In this document: piece after piece, positions 239 through 9,450 of the stretch
Layout: every line of letters begins with the position of its first letter
Numbering within the stretch: the stretch's first letter is position 1
NCBI RefSeq assembly: GCF_903946935.1
Contig: NZ_CAJAXH010000026.1
Location: forward strand, 1 to 60,645
Source of the DNA: an uncultured Thiodictyon sp.
Lineage (GTDB): Bacteria; Pseudomonadota; Gammaproteobacteria; Chromatiales; Chromatiaceae
Reading direction: 5' to 3'
DNA: 60,645 nucleotides
Position numbers and translations under genes: made by a program
Notes under the pieces: generated by a model
What the model saw: the letters and a program-made list of their open reading frames with translations, nothing else
Databases searched by the model: none
Told to the model about the DNA's origin: nothing

Positions 239-3200
239 ATGAACGCCGCCCGCTACCCCGTCTGGACCCTCCTGGTCCTGCTGCTCGCCACCTGGTCGGC
301 CCTCGCCACGGCCGAACCCGCACCCGCACCCGCACCCGATCCCACGGCCAATCAGGCCGCGCCCATCCCGGCGGCCGAACTCGGCCGGCGCGCCGATGCC
401 CAGCAGGCCGCGCCCACGCCGGTGCTCGACGGGGGGCGCGCCACCCTGGCCGTGCCCCTGCAGGCCCTGCGCGGGGAGGTCGGCCCGGCCGGGCTGAGCG
501 TGGACTCCACCTCGGTCGCCGAGGGCACGGGCCGCTTCCGGCTGACGCCCGGCACCCTGAGCAAGGGCGGCACGCCCACCCCCGTGGGGCCCGGCGTCGT
601 GCGCCTGAGCGGGCAGACCGCCGTGCTGGACCGCGGCGCGCTCACCGAGGTCTTCAGCGCCTCCGCCGACGGGCTGCGCCAGGACTTCGTGGTGGCGCAA
701 CCGCCCGCCGGGGACGCCCCGCTCACCCTGACCCTGGCACTGGAGGGCGTGACCGCGGCCGACGCGGCCGATGGGATCGCGCTGACGCTGCCGGGCGGGC
801 GCAAGCTCGTCTATCACCACCTGCACATCACCGACGCCGCCGGCCAGGTACTGACCGGTCAATTGCGCCGCGCCGATGACCACACCCTGGCCATCACCGT
901 GGCGGACGCCCAGGCCCGCTACCCGATCACCATCGACCCCACCATCACCGATGCCGACTGGCAGGTGTGGGGTGGTGCCCTCGCGGGGGCGAACCGCACC
1001 GTGCAGGCGCTGGCCTACGATAGCACCGGCAGCAAGCTCTACGTCGGTGGCGACTTTAGCGCCATCGGCACCGTCAAGACCAACGGCATCGCGCAATGGG
1101 ACGGCAGCGTCTGGTCGGCGCTGGGCGGCGGCATCGGCCAGTACGAAACGGTCTACGCCATGGCGGTGTCGTCCGGCGGCACCCTCTACGTCGGCGGCAG
1201 CTTCACCACGGCCGGCGGGGTCGCGGTCAACAACATCGCTCAATGGGACGGCAGCGCCTGGACGGCGCTGGGCAACGGCCTGAACAGCCAGGTCCAGGCG
1301 CTGGCGGTGTTCGGCAGCACCCTCTACGCCGGCGGCTACTTCGACACAGCCGGCGCGGTCACGGCCAACTACATCGCACAATGGAACGGCAGTGCCTGGT
1401 CCAACCTCGGCACCGGCCTGGACAGCCAAGTCAACGCCCTGGCGGTGTCGTCCACCGGCATCCTCTATGCCGGCGGCGGCTTCACCGCGATTCAAGGCGG
1501 CACGGCGGGTACGCTCAACCACATTGCCCAATGGAACGGCAGCGCCTGGTTGGCACTGGGCAACGGCATGAACCAGTACGCCTCGGTCATGGCCCTGGCG
1601 GTGTCCGGCAGCACTCTCTACGCCGGCGGCTACTTCAGCACGGCCGGCGGGGTCGCGGTCAACAACATCGCGCAATGGAGTAGCGGCGCCTGGTCGGACG
1701 TCGGCGGCGGCATGGACCAGTACGGTCCGGTCAATGCCCTGGCGGTGTCCGGCAGCACCCTCTACGCCGGCGGCTCCTTCAGCACGGCCGGCGGGGTTGC
1801 GGCCAACGCCATCGCACAATGGAACGGCACCGCCTGGTCGCCGTTGGGCAGCGGCATTTCGTTCGGCATGAACGGGGTCACCGCCCTGGCGGTGTCCGGC
1901 AGCGGTACCCTCTATGCCGGCGGCGACTTCACCACGGCCGGCGGGGTTGGGGCCAACGGCATCGCGCAATGGAGCGGCAGTGCCTGGTCGGGGCTGGGCA
2001 CCGGCATGGACGGCGCGGTCAACGCCCTGGCGGTGTCCGGCAGCGGCACCACCCTCTATGTCGGCGGCGCCTTCACCACGGTCGGCGGGGTCACGGTCAA
2101 CCGCATCGCGCAATGGAACGGCAGCGCCTGGTCGGCGTTGGGCAGCGGCATGGACAGCGATGTCTTCGCCCTGGCGGTGTCCGGCAGCACCCTCTACGCT
2201 GGCGGCCGGTTCAGCACGGCCGGCGGGGTCACGGTCAACAACATCGCGCAATGGGACATCGTCAACAGCGCCTGGTCGGCGCTGGGCAGCGGCATGGACG
2301 GCGATGTCTACGCCCTGGCGGTGTCCGGCGGCACCCTCTACGCCGGCGGCTACTTCAGCATGGCCGACGGCAAGTCGGCCAAGTCCGTCGCGCAATGGAA
2401 CGGCAACGCGTGGTCGGCCGTCGGCAGCGGTATGAACCAGTACGCCACGGTCTACGCCCTGGCGGTGTCCGGCAGCACCCTCTACGCCGGTGGCTGGTTC
2501 ACCACGGCCGGCACGGTCACGACCACAGGGATCGCCCAATGGAACGGCACCGCCTGGTCGGCGCTGGGCAGCGGCATCGACAACCAAGTCAACGCCCTGG
2601 CGGTGTCCGGCAGCACCCTCTACGCCGGTGGCTGGTTCAGCACGGCCGGTACGGTCTCGGCCCCCAAAATCGCGCAATGGAACATCCTCAACAACACTTG
2701 GTCGGCGCTGGGCAGCGGCCTGAACAGCGCGCCCTCCGCCCTGGCGGTGTCCGGCGGCACCCTCTACGTTGGCGGCGGCTTCACCAGGGCCGGCGGGCTC
2801 ACGGTCAACCACATCGCGCAATGGGACATCGTCAACAGCACCTGGTCGGCGCTGGGCAGCGGCCTGGACAATCAGGTGAACGCCCTGGCGGTGCTCGGGA
2901 CGACGCTCTATGTCGGCGGCAACTTCCTCACCGCCGGCAACAAGTTGTCTCCCTACGCCGCCGTGGTGCGCCTGTCGCCCTGCGGCCCCGGCGTCGCGCT
3001 GACCACCAGCCCCACCGCCCTGTGGCAGCAACTGGCACTGCCCTGTGTACCCAGTGTCGGCACGGCCAGCGTGGCGAACGTACTCGGCAACGGCCCCACG
3101 GCCAACCTGGTCGGCACCAATTACGGTTCGAACAGTTGGCTGATGTATGACCTGCCGCCGACGGCGACCGCCTACCGGGTGCTCACCAAGACCAGCCTGC

Positions 3201-4219
3201 TCACCTCCGGCACCGGCTATTGGATCAAGAGCCTGGTGGCGCCGGTCGGGGGTCAGCTCAGGGTCGCGGGCACCAAGACCCCGGTGGATACCGCCCTCGC
3301 CGACTGCCAATCGATCGACGGCTGTGCCGTGGTGCAGGTGTACAGCAGCGGCCAGCCGATCGGCTACAAGCTGATCGGCAATCCCTTCCCCTATGATGTG
3401 GACTGGTCCAAGGTGCGGGTGCGGGTCGATGGCACCGTCTACACCCCGAGTCAAGCGGCGGGTATCGGGGGCAATGCCGCCAGTCCCGCGGTCCTGTCCA
3501 ACCAGATCTGGATCTGGAACGGCAACACCTTCCAGTACTGGACCGACACCGCGCCCAACCAGGGCAACCTGCAATATTTTAAGGCATTCTGGGTCAAGGT
3601 GCTGCCCGGGGCAGCGAACAAGACCATCGAGCTGCTGATCCCCGCCGAGGCCTCCACGGTGCCGCTGAGCGCGCTGCCGACGCCGTTCGCGGCACCGCTG
3701 GCCGCCGTGCCGGCGCGGCCCTGGTATCTGGCCTGGCTGGATGCCCTGATCCCGAGCGCCGCCGCGGCGGAGCGGCCGGCGGGTGCCTGGGTGATCCAGC
3801 TCAAGGTCGAGGCCCCCAAGACCGGCTGGAAGGCCCAGGCCAAACTCGGTCAATGGCCCGGCGCCGAGCCGGGTTACGACCCCGCGGACCTGACCGCCAT
3901 GGCCCCCTTCGCCAGCCCCTACCTGACCCTGGTCTTTCCGCAACCCGCCTGGGGGGCGCGCAAGGGCGACTATGGCACCGATTTGCGCCCCGCCGACGGT
4001 TGGCCGGGTACCTGGAACCTGGAGCTGCGCACCGATCCGGTCGGCGCGGCGGTGGTGCTGCGCTGGACGGGCGACCCCGCCATCCTGGCGCGCTCGCGCC
4101 TGACCGATAAGCAGACCGGCAAGGTGATCGATCCCGCCGACCCGGCCTATGTCAAGGGCTACCCCCTCACCCTGACCACCAAGGTGCGCGCCCTGACCTG
4201 GGAGTATCTCGGCAACTGA
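239..4219 (+). CDS. large secreted repeat protein, beta-propeller-like
   Basis: The 1326-residue product starts with a signal peptide (charged start, then a LLVLLLATWSALATA core) followed by an Ala-Pro stretch. Residues of about 245-930 hold 14 copies of a ~45-residue unit with the consensus ALAVSGSTLYAGG-F-TAGGV...IAQWNG...WSALG. The Trp, Gly-Gly and short strand pattern resembles beta-propeller blades, and 14 would fit two seven-bladed propellers; that is inference. The C-terminal ~390 residues are a different, non-repeated region with Cys pairs (CGPG, ALPC, DCQSIDGC). No membrane anchor, LPXTG or PEP-CTERM signal is visible, so it is probably periplasmic or exported. The start is supported by a GGAGA site about 6 bases upstream. 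It lies just before the 68-residue peptide gene, on the same strand. Confidence 0.85.
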   Translation: MNAARYPVWTLLVLLLATWSALATAEPAPAPAPDPTANQAAPIPAAELGRRADAQQAAPTPVLDGGRATLAVPLQALRGEVGPAGLSVDSTSVAEGTGRFRLTPGTLSKGGTPTPVGPGVVRLSGQTAVLDRGALTEVFSASADGLRQDFVVAQPPAGDAPLTLTLALEGVTAADAADGIALTLPGGRKLVYHHLHITDAAGQVLTGQLRRADDHTLAITVADAQARYPITIDPTITDADWQVWGGALAGANRTVQALAYDSTGSKLYVGGDFSAIGTVKTNGIAQWDGSVWSALGGGIGQYETVYAMAVSSGGTLYVGGSFTTAGGVAVNNIAQWDGSAWTALGNGLNSQVQALAVFGSTLYAGGYFDTAGAVTANYIAQWNGSAWSNLGTGLDSQVNALAVSSTGILYAGGGFTAIQGGTAGTLNHIAQWNGSAWLALGNGMNQYASVMALAVSGSTLYAGGYFSTAGGVAVNNIAQWSSGAWSDVGGGMDQYGPVNALAVSGSTLYAGGSFSTAGGVAANAIAQWNGTAWSPLGSGISFGMNGVTALAVSGSGTLYAGGDFTTAGGVGANGIAQWSGSAWSGLGTGMDGAVNALAVSGSGTTLYVGGAFTTVGGVTVNRIAQWNGSAWSALGSGMDSDVFALAVSGSTLYAGGRFSTAGGVTVNNIAQWDIVNSAWSALGSGMDGDVYALAVSGGTLYAGGYFSMADGKSAKSVAQWNGNAWSAVGSGMNQYATVYALAVSGSTLYAGGWFTTAGTVTTTGIAQWNGTAWSALGSGIDNQVNALAVSGSTLYAGGWFSTAGTVSAPKIAQWNILNNTWSALGSGLNSAPSALAVSGGTLYVGGGFTRAGGLTVNHIAQWDIVNSTWSALGSGLDNQVNALAVLGTTLYVGGNFLTAGNKLSPYAAVVRLSPCGPGVALTTSPTALWQQLALPCVPSVGTASVANVLGNGPTANLVGTNYGSNSWLMYDLPPTATAYRVLTKTSLLTSGTGYWIKSLVAPVGGQLRVAGTKTPVDTALADCQSIDGCAVVQVYSSGQPIGYKLIGNPFPYDVDWSKVRVRVDGTVYTPSQAAGIGGNAASPAVLSNQIWIWNGNTFQYWTDTAPNQGNLQYFKAFWVKVLPGAANKTIELLIPAEASTVPLSALPTPFAAPLAAVPARPWYLAWLDALIPSAAAAERPAGAWVIQLKVEAPKTGWKAQAKLGQWPGAEPGYDPADLTAMAPFASPYLTLVFPQPAWGARKGDYGTDLRPADGWPGTWNLELRTDPVGAAVVLRWTGDPAILARSRLTDKQTGKVIDPADPAYVKGYPLTLTTKVRALTWEYLGN

Positions 4220-4226
4220 GCCGGGG

Positions 4227-4255
4227 CGGGCGCGCCGAGCGGTTCGGCGCGCCCG
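4227..4255 (+). terminator. strong GC hairpin between repeat protein and small peptide gene
   Basis: Two perfect 12-base arms (4227-4238 and 4244-4255) enclose a five-base loop, directly after the stop at 4219. No T run follows, so it may be a weak terminator, an attenuator or an RNA-stability element that sets the large protein's expression apart from the genes downstream. Confidence 0.4.
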
Positions 4256-4287
4256 CGTTCATCTGTCCCCAACTGGCCACTTTACCG

Positions 4288-4494
4288 ATGAGAACCACCG
4301 CGATGCACACCCCCGTTGACGACACCACCCCCACCACCGCGGACACCGCCGCGCCCACCGATGCCGAGCGCCGCGCGGCCTTGCAGCGGCTGGGTGCCCT
4401 GGCGGCCCTGACCCCGCCGGTGGTGCTCACCCTGCTGCTGTCGCCGCGCCCCTCGGCGGCCTCCGTCGGTGCGCCGCCGGTGCTTGGGCCCTAG
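4288..4494 (+). CDS. 68-residue peptide, candidate substrate of the PqqD/HprK-like system
   Basis: A small protein with a Thr/Ala/Asp-rich N-terminus, then ERRAALQRLGALAAL, then a hydrophobic stretch TPPVVLTLLLS and a short Ser/Ala/Pro/Gly tail. It sits 17 bases before the PqqD-like/HprK-like fusion gene. PqqD-type domains bind precursor peptides in RiPP pathways, so the position suggests it is the partner or substrate peptide. The RR-plus-hydrophobic pattern also looks like a weak export or membrane signal. A second ATG lies at 4303; neither has an obvious Shine-Dalgarno site. No known RiPP core motif, such as a Cys-rich or Gly-Gly processing site, is visible. Function is inferred from context only. 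Confidence 0.6.
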   Translation: MRTTAMHTPVDDTTPTTADTAAPTDAERRAALQRLGALAALTPPVVLTLLLSPRPSAASVGAPPVLGP

Positions 4495-4511
4495 AACAGG
4501 GGCCGGGCATC

Positions 4512-5708
4512 ATGCTCCACACCACACTGGGTTCGACCCGTTTGCTGGCGCGCCCGGGCGACCGCCGGCTCTGGCTGCTCGATAGCTTCACTGCTGCGCT
4601 CTGGGACCTGCACGCGGCGGGCTGGGCGCCGGGGCCGCTGGCCGAGCTGCTGGCGCAGCGCTTCGGGCTCAACCCGGGCGCGGCCGGCGACTATCTGGAC
4701 ACCCTGCGCGCCGCATGGCAAGCGGCAGGTCTGCTCGCGGATGAGGCCGCGACGGCCGGGCGCTTGACCCCGGCGCAGGCCTTGTGGTCGCTACCCCCGC
4801 CCGACGGCGCCCCGTCCCCGCCCGGGGCCTGGCGGCTGGCGGTGGCGGATCGGACACTGAGTCTGGCGATCACCGATGGGGCGTTGCGCGCCGACCTCGC
4901 CCCGCTGCTCGCTTCCTTGATGGTACCGCCGCCCACCCCGGACCAGCTCGCCGATTGGGGGCGGCCCAGCGATCGCCTGATTCTGGATGGCGCGGCCGCG
5001 CACTGGACCCTCACCGCCAACGGCCGGGGCTGGGAGGCGGGTCACGGCCATGATGCCGCACTGGTGGCCATCCTGCACGGCTTGACCGAGTTCGGCTGCG
5101 CTACCCACGAGCGCCTGCTGGTGGTACATGGCGCCGGGCTGGTCGCGCCCGACGGGCGCGCACTCTTGTTGATTGCCCCCGGCGGTTCCGGCAAGAGCAC
5201 CCTGACCGCAGCGCTGAATACCGCGAGCTATGGGCTCTTGAGCGACGACGTGGTGCCGGTGACCCCGGCGGGCGAACTCTTGGGCCTGGGATTGCCGCTG
5301 TGTCTGAAGCCCGGCAGTTGGCCGCTGCTGGTGGGGTGCCGACCGGACCTGGCCCAGGCGCCGACTGTGCAGCGCCTGGGCCAGGCGGTGCGCTTTCTGC
5401 CGCCGCGGGGGCGGGTGGCACCAGGTCCGCGGGTGCCGGCCCGGTTGCTGTTTCCGCGCTTTCGCCCCGGCCTGGCGCCCCGGCGCGAGCGCCTGTCGCC
5501 CGCGCGGGCGCTGCAGGGCCTCATCGAGGCCGAGGCGGTGATCCGCGACCTCACCCAGGTCAAACTCGCGGCCCTGGCGCACTGGGTGGGCGCGGTGCCG
5601 GCCTATGCCCTGAGCTATCCGGACCTCGACGGCGGTGTGGCGCTGGTCCGCGGCCTCCTCGATGACCTTGACTCACATGAGTATGACGCCCATGACACAA
5701 CGGCTTAG
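4512..5708 (+). CDS. PqqD-like domain fused to HprK-like P-loop kinase domain
   Basis: The 398-residue protein has two parts. Residues of about 1-85 follow the PqqD winged-helix pattern (LLDSFTAALWDLHAAG, an LAELLAQRFG helix, a closing AGLL), the fold that presents precursor peptides to modifying enzymes. Residues of about 200-380 resemble the HPr kinase/phosphorylase catalytic core: a Walker A motif GGSGKST near residue 224, followed by LLSDDVVPV, the HprK-type acidic motif. The N-terminal HprK domain is absent. HprK-related proteins next to PqqD-like proteins and nucleotidyltransferases are a known but functionally unresolved association; here the first two are one polypeptide. The gene follows the 68-residue peptide by 17 bases and overlaps the next gene, indicating an operon. 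Confidence 0.8.
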   Translation: MLHTTLGSTRLLARPGDRRLWLLDSFTAALWDLHAAGWAPGPLAELLAQRFGLNPGAAGDYLDTLRAAWQAAGLLADEAATAGRLTPAQALWSLPPPDGAPSPPGAWRLAVADRTLSLAITDGALRADLAPLLASLMVPPPTPDQLADWGRPSDRLILDGAAAHWTLTANGRGWEAGHGHDAALVAILHGLTEFGCATHERLLVVHGAGLVAPDGRALLLIAPGGSGKSTLTAALNTASYGLLSDDVVPVTPAGELLGLGLPLCLKPGSWPLLVGCRPDLAQAPTVQRLGQAVRFLPPRGRVAPGPRVPARLLFPRFRPGLAPRRERLSPARALQGLIEAEAVIRDLTQVKLAALAHWVGAVPAYALSYPDLDGGVALVRGLLDDLDSHEYDAHDTTA

Positions 5709-6759
5709 AATCACCCGCTGGTCCGATCTCGCCGCCCTGCTCGATCCGGGCGGACAGTGCGCCGATCCCAGGGCGGATGGTCATGCGCTCGATTGGCTGG
5801 GCATCTACGCATTGGCGGCGGCCCATCTGGTGGCCCCCACACTCTATGCCGTGCTGGCGGCACGCGGTCGGCTGGACGCGGTGCCGGAGGCGGTGTGCGC
5901 TGCCCTGGCGGAACTGCATCGGCTCAATGACGCGCGCAATGCGCGGTTGCGTGCGGTGCTGCGTGATACGGTGCGACATCTCATCGCGGCCGGGATCGAG
6001 CCGCTGTTGCTCAAGGGGTCGATCGCCCTGCTGCCCGATCAATACCCGCAGGCCGCGGCGCGCATGATGGGCGACCTGGACCTGGCGTTGGTCAACGCGC
6101 CGGCCGAGCAGGGCGAGGCGGTGTTGCGGGCGGCCGGCTATTTTGCTGCACCCAACGTCAATCCGGCGCATTATACCGCCCCCTTTCATCATATCGTTCC
6201 GCTGTTTCACCCCAGCGGCGACGGCTATGTGGAACTGCATCGGGCTATCCTGGCCGGGTGGGTGCCGGCGCAAGCGCTGCCGCTGGCGCGGGTGTGCGGT
6301 GCGGCGCAGCCGGTCGACTGGGACGGCCTGCGGTTGTGGGTGCCATCCCTGGGGCATCGCCTGCTCCATAATGCGCTGCACCACCAGGTGACTGATGCGG
6401 GCTTGTACTCCGGCCGTCGCGCCTTGCGCCAACTGTTTGAGTTTGCAAAGTTGCGGGCGTTGCCGGGCGCCGCGCGGATCGACTGGCCGGACCTACTCGC
6501 CGGACTCGACCGGGTGGGGCAGGGCGGTGCGGTGCGCGCCTATCTGCTCGCGGGCGAGCGGCTGTTCGGCCAACCCTTGCCGGCCGGCGTCAGGCCGGGT
6601 GTCATGGCTTACTGGTCGGAGCGACTTGCTTGGCTGCGCATTGCGCTGCCGCGCCTGGGGCCGCAGTTCGATCTGGTCGGACGTCTGCACAACCTGCCCC
6701 GACACCTCATCACGCCGAGCTGGTATCCGGCGAAGATTCGTTCCCTGTGTCGGGGGTGA
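5692..6759 (+). CDS. nucleotidyltransferase-fold family protein
   Basis: The product (about 355 residues) contains LLKGSIALLP followed by RMMGDLDLAL. This is the pattern of the uncharacterised nucleotidyltransferase family often found beside HprK-like and PqqD-like genes (NTP_transf_5 type), with Asp residues suited to metal and nucleotide binding. A His-rich stretch follows (HYTAPFHHIVPLFH). The rest is Leu/Ala/Arg-rich and helical. It overlaps the end of the fusion gene, so the two are probably translationally coupled. ATGs at 5662, 5677 and 5683 are alternative starts; 5692 gives MTQRLRITRW. It might transfer a nucleotide or phosphate-linked group to the small peptide, but no substrate can be read from the sequence. 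Confidence 0.75.
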   Translation: MTQRLRITRWSDLAALLDPGGQCADPRADGHALDWLGIYALAAAHLVAPTLYAVLAARGRLDAVPEAVCAALAELHRLNDARNARLRAVLRDTVRHLIAAGIEPLLLKGSIALLPDQYPQAAARMMGDLDLALVNAPAEQGEAVLRAAGYFAAPNVNPAHYTAPFHHIVPLFHPSGDGYVELHRAILAGWVPAQALPLARVCGAAQPVDWDGLRLWVPSLGHRLLHNALHHQVTDAGLYSGRRALRQLFEFAKLRALPGAARIDWPDLLAGLDRVGQGGAVRAYLLAGERLFGQPLPAGVRPGVMAYWSERLAWLRIALPRLGPQFDLVGRLHNLPRHLITPSWYPAKIRSLCRG

Positions 6760-6929
6760 TGGCCGGGCCGCTGCGCCAATGGTCGTCCACAATTCGCGTC
6801 AAGAGTCTTTGTGATCTTTGTGTCTGCGTGTGAGCTGTGATCGCCTGCCTGAGGGCAGGGGTAGTCCGGGGCGCCGACATTGGCACGACTCTCGGTGGTG
6901 CGCTCCAGGGCCGCCAGAGAACGGCTGGC

Positions 6930-7508
6930 TCACCGGGCACCGGCGACCCTCAGGGTCGCCACATCCCCGAGTGCGGCACGGATTTCGTCCAGTGTAATGG
7001 GCCGGGAGCGCGACATCTCATTGAGCATGCCCAGGCAGGTGAGTCGCATCACATTGCGATCCGGTCCCTCAAGCCATAGGTGATAGCCGTCCTGGATCAT
7101 GGGGTTGCCGCCACCCCCGTCGTCGACCCAATGGGCGGGCAGCAACCGTGCCGCAGCCGCTCGGCGATGGTAGGCGACCTGCGCCCAATAGACCTGCACC
7201 CGGGCGATCTGGAAGCTTTGCGGGGCAATACGCTGGGGGCCGGCATGGGATATGCGGCGCACCTGTAGCGCGCAGCTGGGCCCCAGGTTGATCCCGATCT
7301 GGGAGATCTGACCGTCGCGCAAGACCACTTGCGCCTGATCTTGGGGCACCTGAACCGGACGGTTCAGGGTGAGTGTGCTGCCGGGCGGGATCGGGGTCCA
7401 GGGACCCCGGGCCGACTCCTGGACCAGCATCGGTCCACAGCCGGCGAGCCCCAGGGCCGCGGCCAGGACCGCGGCCACCGCAATCCGATATGAATTCCCC
7501 AGCGTCAT
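6930..7508 (-). CDS. hypothetical lipoprotein
   Basis: The 192-residue product has a clear lipoprotein signal: a short start, a hydrophobic run (IAVAAVLAAALG) and a LAGC lipobox with Cys near residue 24. The mature part begins GPMLVQES and includes an eight-residue PWTPIPPG turn region, a central strand-rich stretch and a C-terminal SRSRPITLDEIRAAL segment. I do not recognise the family. It should be anchored in the inner or outer membrane. It stands apart from the flanking plus-strand genes; only the small reading frame upstream at 7519-7731 could be co-transcribed with it. Confidence 0.65.
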   Translation of the reverse strand: MTLGNSYRIAVAAVLAAALGLAGCGPMLVQESARGPWTPIPPGSTLTLNRPVQVPQDQAQVVLRDGQISQIGINLGPSCALQVRRISHAGPQRIAPQSFQIARVQVYWAQVAYHRRAAAARLLPAHWVDDGGGGNPMIQDGYHLWLEGPDRNVMRLTCLGMLNEMSRSRPITLDEIRAALGDVATLRVAGAR

Positions 7509-7518
7509 GGTGTTGCCC

Positions 7519-7731
7519 TCAGTGGTGCGTTGTGTGCCGCTTGATTTGGTGCTCGGCGAGCAGCGGCGTGAGTGCGCAGGACGCCATCTCGGTCATGCTG
7601 TCCGCGATGGTAAGGCGCCGCGCAAGTCGCGCCTTGGCGCCGACGGCGATTTCGTTGAATGTGAGATTTTGGATGCAGATCGGGGACTGGTCTATGGTTG
7701 CGCCTCCAGGATGGTCGATGGCACCACTCAT
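7519..7731 (-). CDS. possible small protein upstream of the lipoprotein gene
   Basis: A 70-residue reading frame ends 11 bases before the lipoprotein start on the same strand. Its composition is less Arg/Ala-biased than nearby shadow frames, with a TFNEIAVGAKARLARRLTI segment. There is no convincing Shine-Dalgarno site and no recognised domain. It may be real and coupled to the lipoprotein, or chance. Confidence 0.35.
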   Translation of the reverse strand: MSGAIDHPGGATIDQSPICIQNLTFNEIAVGAKARLARRLTIADSMTEMASCALTPLLAEHQIKRHTTHH

Positions 7732-7825
7732 TTCCGGGTGGGGGCTGGCGGTACGCGAAGGATAGAATAGATGTCGCTGCCGGTGATAGGGTGGCGACGT
7801 CCAAGCACATCACAGGGGCTCTACC

Positions 7826-8323
7826 ATGACCGAATCGCTCGACCCGCTCGCCACCCGTCTCGGGGAGTTACTGCTGGCCCAGGGGCTGCACCTCACTGCC
7901 GCGGAATCCTGCACCGGCGGCTGGATCGCCAAGGTAGCGACCGACATCGCCGGCAGCAGTGCCTGGTTCGATCGCGGGTTCGTCACCTACAGCAACTCGG
8001 CCAAGACCGAGATGCTCGGGGTGCGGGCGGCGACCCTGGAGGCCCAGGGTGCGGTGAGCGAGGCCGTGGTCCTGGAGATGGTGGCCGGTGCCCTGGCGCA
8101 CAGCCGGGCGCAGGTGGCGGTGGCGGTGAGCGGCATTGCCGGACCCGGCGGCGGCAGCGCGGACAAGCCGGTGGGTAGGGTCTGGTTCGCCTGGTCGGTC
8201 CCCGGTGCCCCACCCTGGGCGCGGTGCCTGCAATTTGTGGGCGAACGGGGTGAGGTGCGACACCAGGCGGTGCGGTGTGCCATCGCGGCCCTCGTGGAGC
8301 GGCTGGCGGGGTCCGGTGGCTGA
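7826..8323 (+). CDS. pncC: nicotinamide-nucleotide amidohydrolase (CinA C-terminal family)
   Basis: PncC deamidates nicotinamide mononucleotide to nicotinate mononucleotide, recycling pyridine nucleotides in the cytoplasm. The 165-residue length matches the stand-alone family. Signature motifs are present: LTAAESCTGGWIA near residues 24-36, TYSNSAKTEMLGV in the middle, and AVSGIAGPGGGSADKPVG near residue 100. The stop overlaps the thpR start by eight bases, so the two are probably translated from one message. In many gammaproteobacteria pncC precedes recA; that neighbour is missing here. Confidence 0.93.
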   Translation: MTESLDPLATRLGELLLAQGLHLTAAESCTGGWIAKVATDIAGSSAWFDRGFVTYSNSAKTEMLGVRAATLEAQGAVSEAVVLEMVAGALAHSRAQVAVAVSGIAGPGGGSADKPVGRVWFAWSVPGAPPWARCLQFVGERGEVRHQAVRCAIAALVERLAGSGG

Positions 8324-8921
8324 ACGCTGGTTCTTTGCCCTGTGGCCGGACCCGGCGACGGCCAAGGTCCTGGCCGCGCGGGCCAGGCCGCTGATCCCGC
8401 CCGGCGCCCGCGCGGCCCATCCGCTGGATCTGCACCTCACCTTGCGCTTTTTGGGTGAGTTGAGCCCTGACGCACTGCGGGCGGCGCAGTCGGTGGGGGC
8501 GGGGGTGCGGGCCGCGCCCTTGAGCCTAAGCCTCGATCAGGCGGGCTGTTTCCCGCGTGCCGCGGTGCTGTGGTGCGGGCCGACCCGGGCCCCGGAGGCG
8601 CTGTTGGCGCTCGTGACCCAATTGGAGCAGGGGCTTGCGTCCCAGGGGTTCGTCCCGGAAACCAGGCCCTACCGCCCGCACCTGACCCTGGCGCGGCGGT
8701 TCCATGGGCGCGCGGCGCGGGACTGGGGGCCGGCGGTGACCTGGGAGGCGCGGGAGCTGGTGCTCGCCCATGGGTGTCCCGGTCAGTTGCCGCGCTATGT
8801 CGCGGCGCGCCGGTGGCCCCTCGCCGTTGCGCCTAGAGAGAGCGATTGTCCGCAAATGAACGCAAAAAACGCAAATAAAATCAAATTACTTACCTCAGCC
8901 CCGTCACCACCCCCGGGGTGA
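8316..8921 (+). CDS. thpR: RNA 2',3'-cyclic phosphodiesterase (2H family)
   Basis: ThpR hydrolyses 2',3'-cyclic phosphate ends of RNA and belongs to the two-histidine phosphoesterases. Both catalytic motifs are visible: LHLTLRFLG near residue 40 and PHLTLARRF near residue 124. The start is a GTG at 8316, inside the pncC stop region, giving VAERWFFALWPD, which fits the family N-terminus. The last ~25 residues (from about 8850) are encoded by the left arm of a CGCAAAT-type inverted repeat, so the native C-terminus has probably been replaced. The core fold is complete before that point. Confidence 0.9.
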   Translation: MAERWFFALWPDPATAKVLAARARPLIPPGARAAHPLDLHLTLRFLGELSPDALRAAQSVGAGVRAAPLSLSLDQAGCFPRAAVLWCGPTRAPEALLALVTQLEQGLASQGFVPETRPYRPHLTLARRFHGRAARDWGPAVTWEARELVLAHGCPGQLPRYVAARRWPLAVAPRESDCPQMNAKNANKIKLLTSAPSPPPG

Positions 8922-8990
8922 CCTGGCGACCTGACTCAAGCCCTTGATTATTTGCGTTAATTTGCGTTCATTTGCGAACGAAATGCTCTT
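8848..8990. repeat. CGCAAAT-type inverted repeat element, copy 1
   Basis: The left arm (8848-8885) carries units of the form CGCAAATGAA. The right arm (8943-8982) is its reverse complement, with TTTGCGTTCATTTGCG-type units. A ~55-base spacer separates them. It lies at the convergent ends of thpR and the stress-protein gene and reads into the thpR 3' end. A second element of the same design is at 13915-14110. Confidence 0.75.
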
Positions 8991-8997
8991 TTTGGGG

Positions 8998-9450
8998 TTA
9001 CGGCAGCAGCAGGAGCGGCCGGGTCGCGTGCCGCGCCAGGGCGCGGGCGGCCGACTTGAGGCTGGGTCGGCCGCTGACCTGAAAGGTGCGTCGGGCGAAG
9101 ATGCAGAGGTCGGTGCCCGGGTCGTTGAGGCGAGCGAGCAGGACCCGGACCGGATCGCCTGCGGCCAGCTCGAAGCGGGCGTCGCCGAGCCCCGCGGCGG
9201 CCTCGGCGAACTGGCTGCGCGCCGCCTGCGCCTGCGCGTCCTGCTCGCGCCCGATGTGGTCCAGAAACCCCTGGCGCGCGTTGCTGGAGGATTGCCAGTC
9301 GTTGCCGATGAAGTCCGCCCAGCCGGTGTCGATGACAAAGAGGCCCGTCAGGGTGGAGTCACCCTGACGGGCCAGCCAGCACGCGTGCCCCAGGGCCGCG
9401 GCGCAGGCCGGCGAGCCGTCGAGCGCGACCAGGATGTGGCCGAAGTGCAT
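8998..9450 (-). CDS. universal stress protein (UspA family)
   Basis: The 150-residue protein has the single-domain Usp layout: ILVALDGSPACAAAL at the start (first strand and nucleotide loop) and RHATRPLLLLP at the end (last strand). The usual ATP-binding G-2x-G-9x-G(S/T) signature is weak; the sequence near residue 128 reads VSGRPSLKSAARALARHATRP, so it may be a non-ATP-binding member. The gene follows the one-TM protein and YeiH-like transporter genes on the same strand, with a 13-base gap, suggesting one operon. Usp proteins act in the cytoplasm in stress or energy starvation. Confidence 0.88.
   Translation of the reverse strand: MHFGHILVALDGSPACAAALGHACWLARQGDSTLTGLFVIDTGWADFIGNDWQSSSNARQGFLDHIGREQDAQAQAARSQFAEAAAGLGDARFELAAGDPVRVLLARLNDPGTDLCIFARRTFQVSGRPSLKSAARALARHATRPLLLLP

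Follow-up and report, generated by a model that had tools for sequence, protein, structure and literature searches.

LPPs, as described in the available text of PMC13381572, combine a small precursor that has a conserved N-terminus and a variable C-terminus with a discrete RRE, an HprK-like kinase and an NTP transferase, and their clusters also hold an SpI-like peptidase and an MsbA-like exporter. Their consensus, YxxPxVLxHQxIxFETxxS, contains [Y/W]xxP, a leader motif of lasso peptides and LPPs, and places a serine 15 positions after the leader proline (P+15). According to the same part of PMC13381572, this serine is Ser3 of the core in the LPP studied and is polyphosphorylated by the HprK-like LppK, as shown by gene deletion, MS/MS and substitution; Thr or Tyr in its place was not phosphorylated, and deletion of lppN caused no detectable change. 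Lasso peptides of the paeninodin/pseudomycoidin type use an RRE (B1), an HprK-type kinase with a His-Lys-Asp set and a nucleotidyltransferase, and in pseudomycoidin the kinase and then the nucleotidyltransferase modify one serine (PMC9266682, available text). Loci of the HPr-rel-A system, with the curated families TIGR04352 and TIGR04353, have the order precursor, PqqD, HprK and NTP_transf_5, the last being a feature seen in such loci and no curated criterion. HprK-like and PqqD-like proteins (ScmC and ScmD) also occur in the SynChlorMet cassette, which includes radical SAM enzymes. No substrate was named for HprK-related kinase A and its PqqD partner in the papers and models searched.

Here we analyzed a locus of an uncultured Thiodictyon sp. 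at one end of a 60,645-nucleotide stretch of DNA (the window), which is an entire contig whose first gene begins after 238 bases. Its features are as follows.

239..4219, plus strand: large propeller-type-repeat protein, 1326 residues (Rax2/DUF5122 matches)
3230-4216, plus strand: 'bigC', the last 329 residues of that protein, a conserved domain
4288..4494, plus strand: precursor peptide ORF, 68 residues, kept adjoining the fused kinase in relatives
4303, plus strand: in-frame ATG, the probable peptide start favoured by relatives, giving 63 residues
4369-4374, plus strand: twin arginine (RR) of the peptide, residues 28-29
4408-4419, plus strand: leader segment LTPP, residues 41-44
4462..4464, plus strand: Ser59 (P+15), predicted phosphorylation site by LPP-consensus spacing (PMC13381572, available text), directly after the AxA-like PSA
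4512-5708, plus strand: fused PqqD/HprK protein, 398 residues
4512..4742, plus strand: PqqD/RRE-like domain of the fused protein, residues 1-77 (profile comparisons and model; weak alone)
4773..5696, plus strand: HprK/PEPCK-fold kinase domain, residues about 88-395 (TIGR04352 match and model fold)
5193-5195: Lys228 of the P-loop, invariant together with His206, Asp245 and Lys266 of the kinase
5692..6759, plus strand: NTP_transf_5 nucleotidyltransferase-fold protein (PF14907; relatives)

Inspection of ORFs and frames confirmed the three tightly packed plus-strand genes of the first-pass annotation. The intergenic gaps are short from the propeller gene to the nucleotidyltransferase gene, which most likely starts at ATG 5692 and overlaps the kinase stop; GTG 5635 of the ORF list looks too early. 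For the peptide, ATG 4303 was preferred because the first ATG is not conserved in relatives. Six of the eight downstream ORFs scanned belong to unrelated families (CinA, LigT-type, Usp, PF03601, GARS and LpxA-type) and two were unmatched. None of the eight matched a radical SAM enzyme, as the first-pass annotation had said, and none gave a Pfam match to an SpI-like peptidase, an MsbA-like exporter, a lasso macrolactam synthetase or a B2 peptidase; upstream, the contig ends. A plasmid DNA search with nucleotides 3900-6800 returned no match.

Compared with the described systems, the window shares with LPPs the small precursor, the RRE, the kinase, the NTP transferase, a leader proline segment, here with Leu in place of W/Y at P-3, and the serine at P+15, but its RRE is fused to the kinase and its leader looks like a signal peptide. 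We did not file it as an LPP because the scannable neighbourhood holds neither SpI-like peptidase nor exporter. With HPr-rel-A it shares the gene order and a related RR-type precursor N-terminus; however, its PqqD and kinase parts are fused and fall below, or have no match against, the curated cut-offs, for which reason it was not filed there, and its precursor is reduced to 63-68 residues without a C-terminal motif. Relatives of the window carry the [W/Y]xxP leader motif of the paeninodin/pseudomycoidin type, whereas the window peptide does not end in the C-terminal serine of that type (PMC9266682, available text). Matches to SynChlorMet models were weak (ScmC, E 0.032, in the window kinase; ScmD, E 0.043, in locus L042). 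The first-pass interpretation is borne out in anatomy and conservation, and the unit would work like an LPP system.

The domain assignments rest on several comparisons. The HprK-like part matched TIGR04352 with 74.8 bits, below the 200-bit cut-off, its model folds as HprK/PEPCK, and the His, Lys and Asp set is invariant. The PqqD-like part had no Pfam or NCBIfam match of its own, and the fused protein had no match to TIGR04353 (cut-off 35 bits) listed at E up to 1. In profile-profile comparison, however, the PqqD-like part aligned with TIGR04353-type PqqD proteins (probability 93.9, E 1.5e-7), and a 20-member profile of the fused family matched the lasso RRE TbiB1 (5v1u) at E 1.2e-8 over profile positions 10-90; when seven window-class N-termini alone were compared with solved structures, TfuB1 was the sole match (E 0.043). 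The fusion of a PqqD-like with an HprK-like part recognized in the first pass is thereby corroborated, as is the nucleotidyltransferase fold (PF14907, E 6e-33). The nucleotidyltransferase sequence found no match among solved structures.

Following the peptide across genomes by tblastn and frame inspection, we saw that relatives carry it too, immediately ahead of their fused kinase. The sample comprises 17 distinct loci, located via the kinase rather than the peptide and with duplicates from two collections merged; contig 26 of genome G124 was left uncounted because it is possibly the other half of contig 23. The 13 loci named in one contig scan come from Thiodictyon, Lamprocystis, three Thiocapsa, Candidatus Thiosymbion, Chromatiaceae, Thiobacillaceae, two Methylococcaceae, Rubrivivax, Candidatus Methylumidiphilus and one unplaced MAG. 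The adjacent peptide is intact at 13 of the 17 loci, partial or disrupted at three (L119, L121 and L125) and absent at one (G125), and the nucleotidyltransferase is present at 14, counting G125, where it is fragmented; it was not found at L119, L125 and L128. The first-pass annotation had held that the peptide-substrate idea falls if the small frame is not conserved beside its neighbours, an outcome that did not occur given the 13 intact copies. A chance ORF was ruled out by this recurrence beside the fused kinase in other genera.

A functionless leftover, namely the signal peptide of a decayed canonical precursor, is a highly improbable explanation of the small ORF. The mini-peptide hardly exceeds a leader, and the disrupted or missing copies would fit decay; yet the peptide stays intact in several genera and is kept where kinase and nucleotidyltransferase are kept, while at G125, which lacks it, the kinase and nucleotidyltransferase genes are in pieces too. 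The G125 locus (L037, G125:C387, about 5900-9200), from the genus of the window, is a decayed copy with no peptide found, a truncated kinase, a fragmented nucleotidyltransferase and, upstream, a remnant of the propeller protein. An ATPase-like ORF on the minus strand (867-2453, by eye) seems to interrupt locus L121 (213-4130), which has an intact peptide after the end of bigC and a second, disrupted peptide ahead of the kinase. At short distance, selection on the peptide is only weakly visible: against two close relatives its dN/dS is about 0.70 and 0.48, compared with 0.46 and 0.48 for the kinase; when the two relatives are compared with each other, dN is slightly above dS, with few changes.

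The mini-peptides share the consensus DxERRAALxxLGALAAWTPPxMLTLxxSxRASAxS, followed by a short tail that is often Pro/Gly-rich. The conserved tail for which the first pass had proposed aligning the small peptides did not emerge beyond one serine, and no NCBIfam model came near its cut-off with the 13 mini-peptides, a single Tat-signal match being weak. A profile of these 13 peptides gave 10 matches of 69 bits or more in 147 genomes of the order; nine adjoin fused kinases, which is no proof of linkage since they are the alignment's own rows, and the tenth is an orphan in genome G111. Five of the next seven matches (E 1.9e-7 to 1.5e-3) lie near an HprK-type kinase and two do not (L134 and L138), L138 being an ordinary RR-signal protein. 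The orphan (L132:5490-5783) stands immediately behind a protein with the bigC domain, and the 11 kb read contain no kinase match; in the same genome, G111, another peptide adjoins a fused kinase.

The large upstream protein was suggested in the first pass to be part of the same unit. Its bigC domain lies directly ahead of the peptide at 10 of the 15 loci with enough upstream sequence (the window, G053, G107, G109, G124 contig 23, L121, L123, with two bigC copies, L126, with 35 bigC residues visible, L127 and the orphan L132), but is absent there at the other five (G104, G111 contig 24, G124 contig 54, L122 and L125). G061, G142 and G005 have the domain as well, with no peptide in their flanks as far as these were read. 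The N-terminal parts of bigC proteins vary (propeller, Lcl_C and a near-cut-off LTD match), and a structure search with bigC was ruled out because its model is too weak (mean pLDDT 55.3). The link between bigC and peptide is real but not strict, and the propeller protein probably, though not certainly, belongs to the unit. These data also bear on an alternative in which the propeller protein has the peptide as its small partner or adaptor, exported or anchored in the membrane, and the kinase and the nucleotidyltransferase modify the large protein or a glycan rather than the peptide. The 10 loci, including the orphan without a kinase, and the very short and variable tails of the mini-peptides speak for it; the five loci that retain peptide and kinase without bigC, the three genomes with bigC and no peptide, and an unfused-family precursor that tracks kinase and PqqD speak against it, and we regard it as unlikely.

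The leader motif and the serine behind it point to the peptide as a candidate substrate. W or Y-T-x-P, that is W/Y at P-3, is found in nine of the 13 mini-peptides; Leu takes this place (LTPP) in L123, in the window and in the two relatives nearest to it, and an aromatic residue at P-3 occurs in only one of 48 unfused segments. Counted from the conserved leader proline, P+15 is Ser in 11 of 15 mini-peptides, Ser59 in the window, with Thr, Ile, Phe or Tyr in the remainder, and in 30 of 36 unfused precursors, namely those of the 48 unfused segments with P...[TS][LIMV]. A broader pattern gave Ser at P+15 in 43 of 64 rows, the top Ser count among P-4 to P+21, these rows including several false pattern matches and also mini-peptides. 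In other fused classes P+15 is Ala (L110 and L113) or His (L115). Together with the co-conserved peptide and the RRE-like N-terminus, the [W/Y]xxP family segment and the P+15 serine partly support the first-pass proposal of a PqqD-presented and then modified peptide. The arrangement is not an isolated one.

Phosphorylation could instead fall elsewhere on the peptide, on the leader Thr/Ser at P+4 or, as in paeninodin-type lasso peptides, on the serine of the C-terminal SC[W]xS motif of the unfused family. PadeK modifies a C-terminal serine (PMC9266682, available text), the C-terminal motif is strongly placed (see below), and P+4 is Thr or Ser in 66 of 66 matched ORFs, though the pattern demanded it. 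A P+4 threonine was nevertheless dropped as an invariant phosphosite: the pattern itself had pre-selected this position, which is occupied by Met in L122 and by Ala in L128. The SC[W]xS serine cannot be the site in the window because the mini-peptides lack that motif. We judge modification at either place distinctly unlikely.

Unfused loci often hold, in the place of the peptide, a larger protein of mostly 100-230 residues with a related N-terminus. TIGR04352 (HprK-related kinase A) scored above its cut-off in 60 of 398 genomes of the phylum (Pseudomonadota) and in none of 14 controls. An N-terminal profile of the unfused precursors (32 positions, E <= 1e-6) matched 45 of the same 398 genomes, all of them among the 60 with the kinase, and 38 of the 45 matches lie directly upstream of the kinase on the same strand. 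When the 16 genomes that supplied seed rows are set aside, the kinase is present in 29 of 29 and the match directly upstream in 22 of 29. Seven matches lie elsewhere, and the sequence was inspected for four of them: the match in G283 (L062) neighbours a PqqD gene that diverges from the kinase, L174 and L176 adjoin PqqD, and L179 has no PqqD within its flanks. Of the 15 kinase genomes without a profile match, 14 were inspected (G335 was left out); a more divergent RR protein lies upstream in 11 (L046, L048, L049, L063, L076, L086, L088, L089, L090, L099 and L100) and none in L085, L091 and L101. The 48 unfused and 24 fused-type N-terminal segments were hand-picked, mostly by their RR pattern, and RR frequency is therefore no evidence. 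Alignment A3 was made with L104 and L107 left out.

Many unfused precursors end in a tail that the window-type mini-peptides lack. The pattern [ST]C[WFYLM]xS[FLIMVS] within 40 residues of the end occurred in 47 of 5663 ORFs of at least 60 residues at 103 kinase loci, and 44 of these 47, one at each of 44 loci, occupy a single position, on the same strand and with their end 0-900 bp ahead of the kinase domain, where 432 ORFs lie in all; drawn from the same loci after inspection, the pattern describes the family and is no independent test. This Pseudomonadota precursor family is named nowhere in the literature searched, which took in few subscription papers and yielded one close precedent, the LPP study (PMC13381572). 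By sequence comparison, the window peptide is best read as a shrunken form of this wider precursor family and the fused system as a reduced relative of HPr-rel-A.

Other arrangements were seen alongside. Two unfused loci (L046 and L064) lie, by eye, beside apparent polysaccharide-export and asparagine-synthase genes, a setting that we liken to the capsule loci adjoining LPP and paeninodin clusters (PMC13381572, available text). A further class has HprK ahead of PqqD (L133, L136 and L137) or both in one frame in that order (L115); the RR protein upstream in these four loci has a segment resembling YxxP, and its core is Gly/Ser-rich or Ser/Arg/Pro-rich. In yet another class (L110, L113, L103 and L106), fused kinases go with small peptides of the form RRxFL...TPPAxTLLL with a Gly-rich tail, placed on the opposite strand or downstream, sometimes two per locus. 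The genome of the window itself has a second set of HprK-like, PqqD and NTP_transf_5 genes with a small ORF ahead (L141, G000:C106, 1203-5651); an ORF with a radical-SAM-like CxxxCxxC (by eye) lies between PqqD and the nucleotidyltransferase, and this set is possibly a separate peptide-modification cluster.

The leader of the peptide combines a twin arginine with an uncharged stretch and an AxA-like site. With matches accepted up to E 1, TAT_signal found seven of 23 unfused segments (lowest E 0.0042) and TIGR01409 one of the 13 mini-peptides (E 0.14); these matches are weak, and Tat export is for that reason a suggestion only. A leader that serves as signal peptide would explain why neither SpI-like peptidase nor exporter is found among the neighbours scanned.

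With gene anatomy, domain identity, kinase residues, co-conservation and motif spacing computed, we moderately favour reading the unit as a minimal phosphopeptide system of an LPP-like kind, with a leader that is at the same time a signal peptide and with a core of some 11 residues. Several points weigh against this reading: Leu at P-3 of the window peptide; residues other than Ser at P+15 in four of 15 mini-peptides, where LppK took neither Thr nor Tyr; Ala or His at P+15 in other fused classes; the weak Tat matches; kinase and PqqD parts that fall below curated cut-offs or go unmatched; no SpI-like peptidase or exporter among the eight neighbours scanned; and an lppN deletion with no detectable effect. 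We infer the steps as follows. The PqqD/RRE domain of the fused protein would bind the peptide leader around xTPP, and the attached HprK-type kinase would phosphorylate the P+15 serine (Ser59), just past the AxA-like site. The NTP_transf_5 protein may then extend that phosphate with a further group, either nucleotidyl or sugar. The leader, which is hydrophobic and contains RR, would also act as a signal peptide, probably of the Tat type, and a leader peptidase or exporter of the system's own would then be unnecessary. Host signal peptidase would free the core of about 11 residues for a role on the surface or outside, in which the upstream propeller protein may take part.

LPPs and paeninodins are stated in the available text of PMC13381572 to be restricted to Bacillota, and the Pseudomonadota system would therefore be their counterpart, by common origin or convergence. 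More tentatively, and with slightly less than even confidence, we propose that HPr-rel-A is an unrecognised phospho-RiPP class parallel to the LPPs, in which the leader is both RRE ligand and secretion signal and modification would thus be tied directly to export. The window would then hold its most reduced form, in which a single protein provides both recognition and catalysis and some 11 core residues work with a surface propeller protein. For the common pairing of HprK-related kinase A with a PqqD protein, the analysis provides a candidate substrate: small secreted-type proteins whose N-terminal motif, at the profile threshold used, was confined to kinase genomes. Their candidate phosphosite has the same spacing as a proven site of another phylum. 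The identity of the substrate, what NTP_transf_5 does and how modification is coupled to export thereby become directly testable, and the fused miniature version is the simplest in which to do so.
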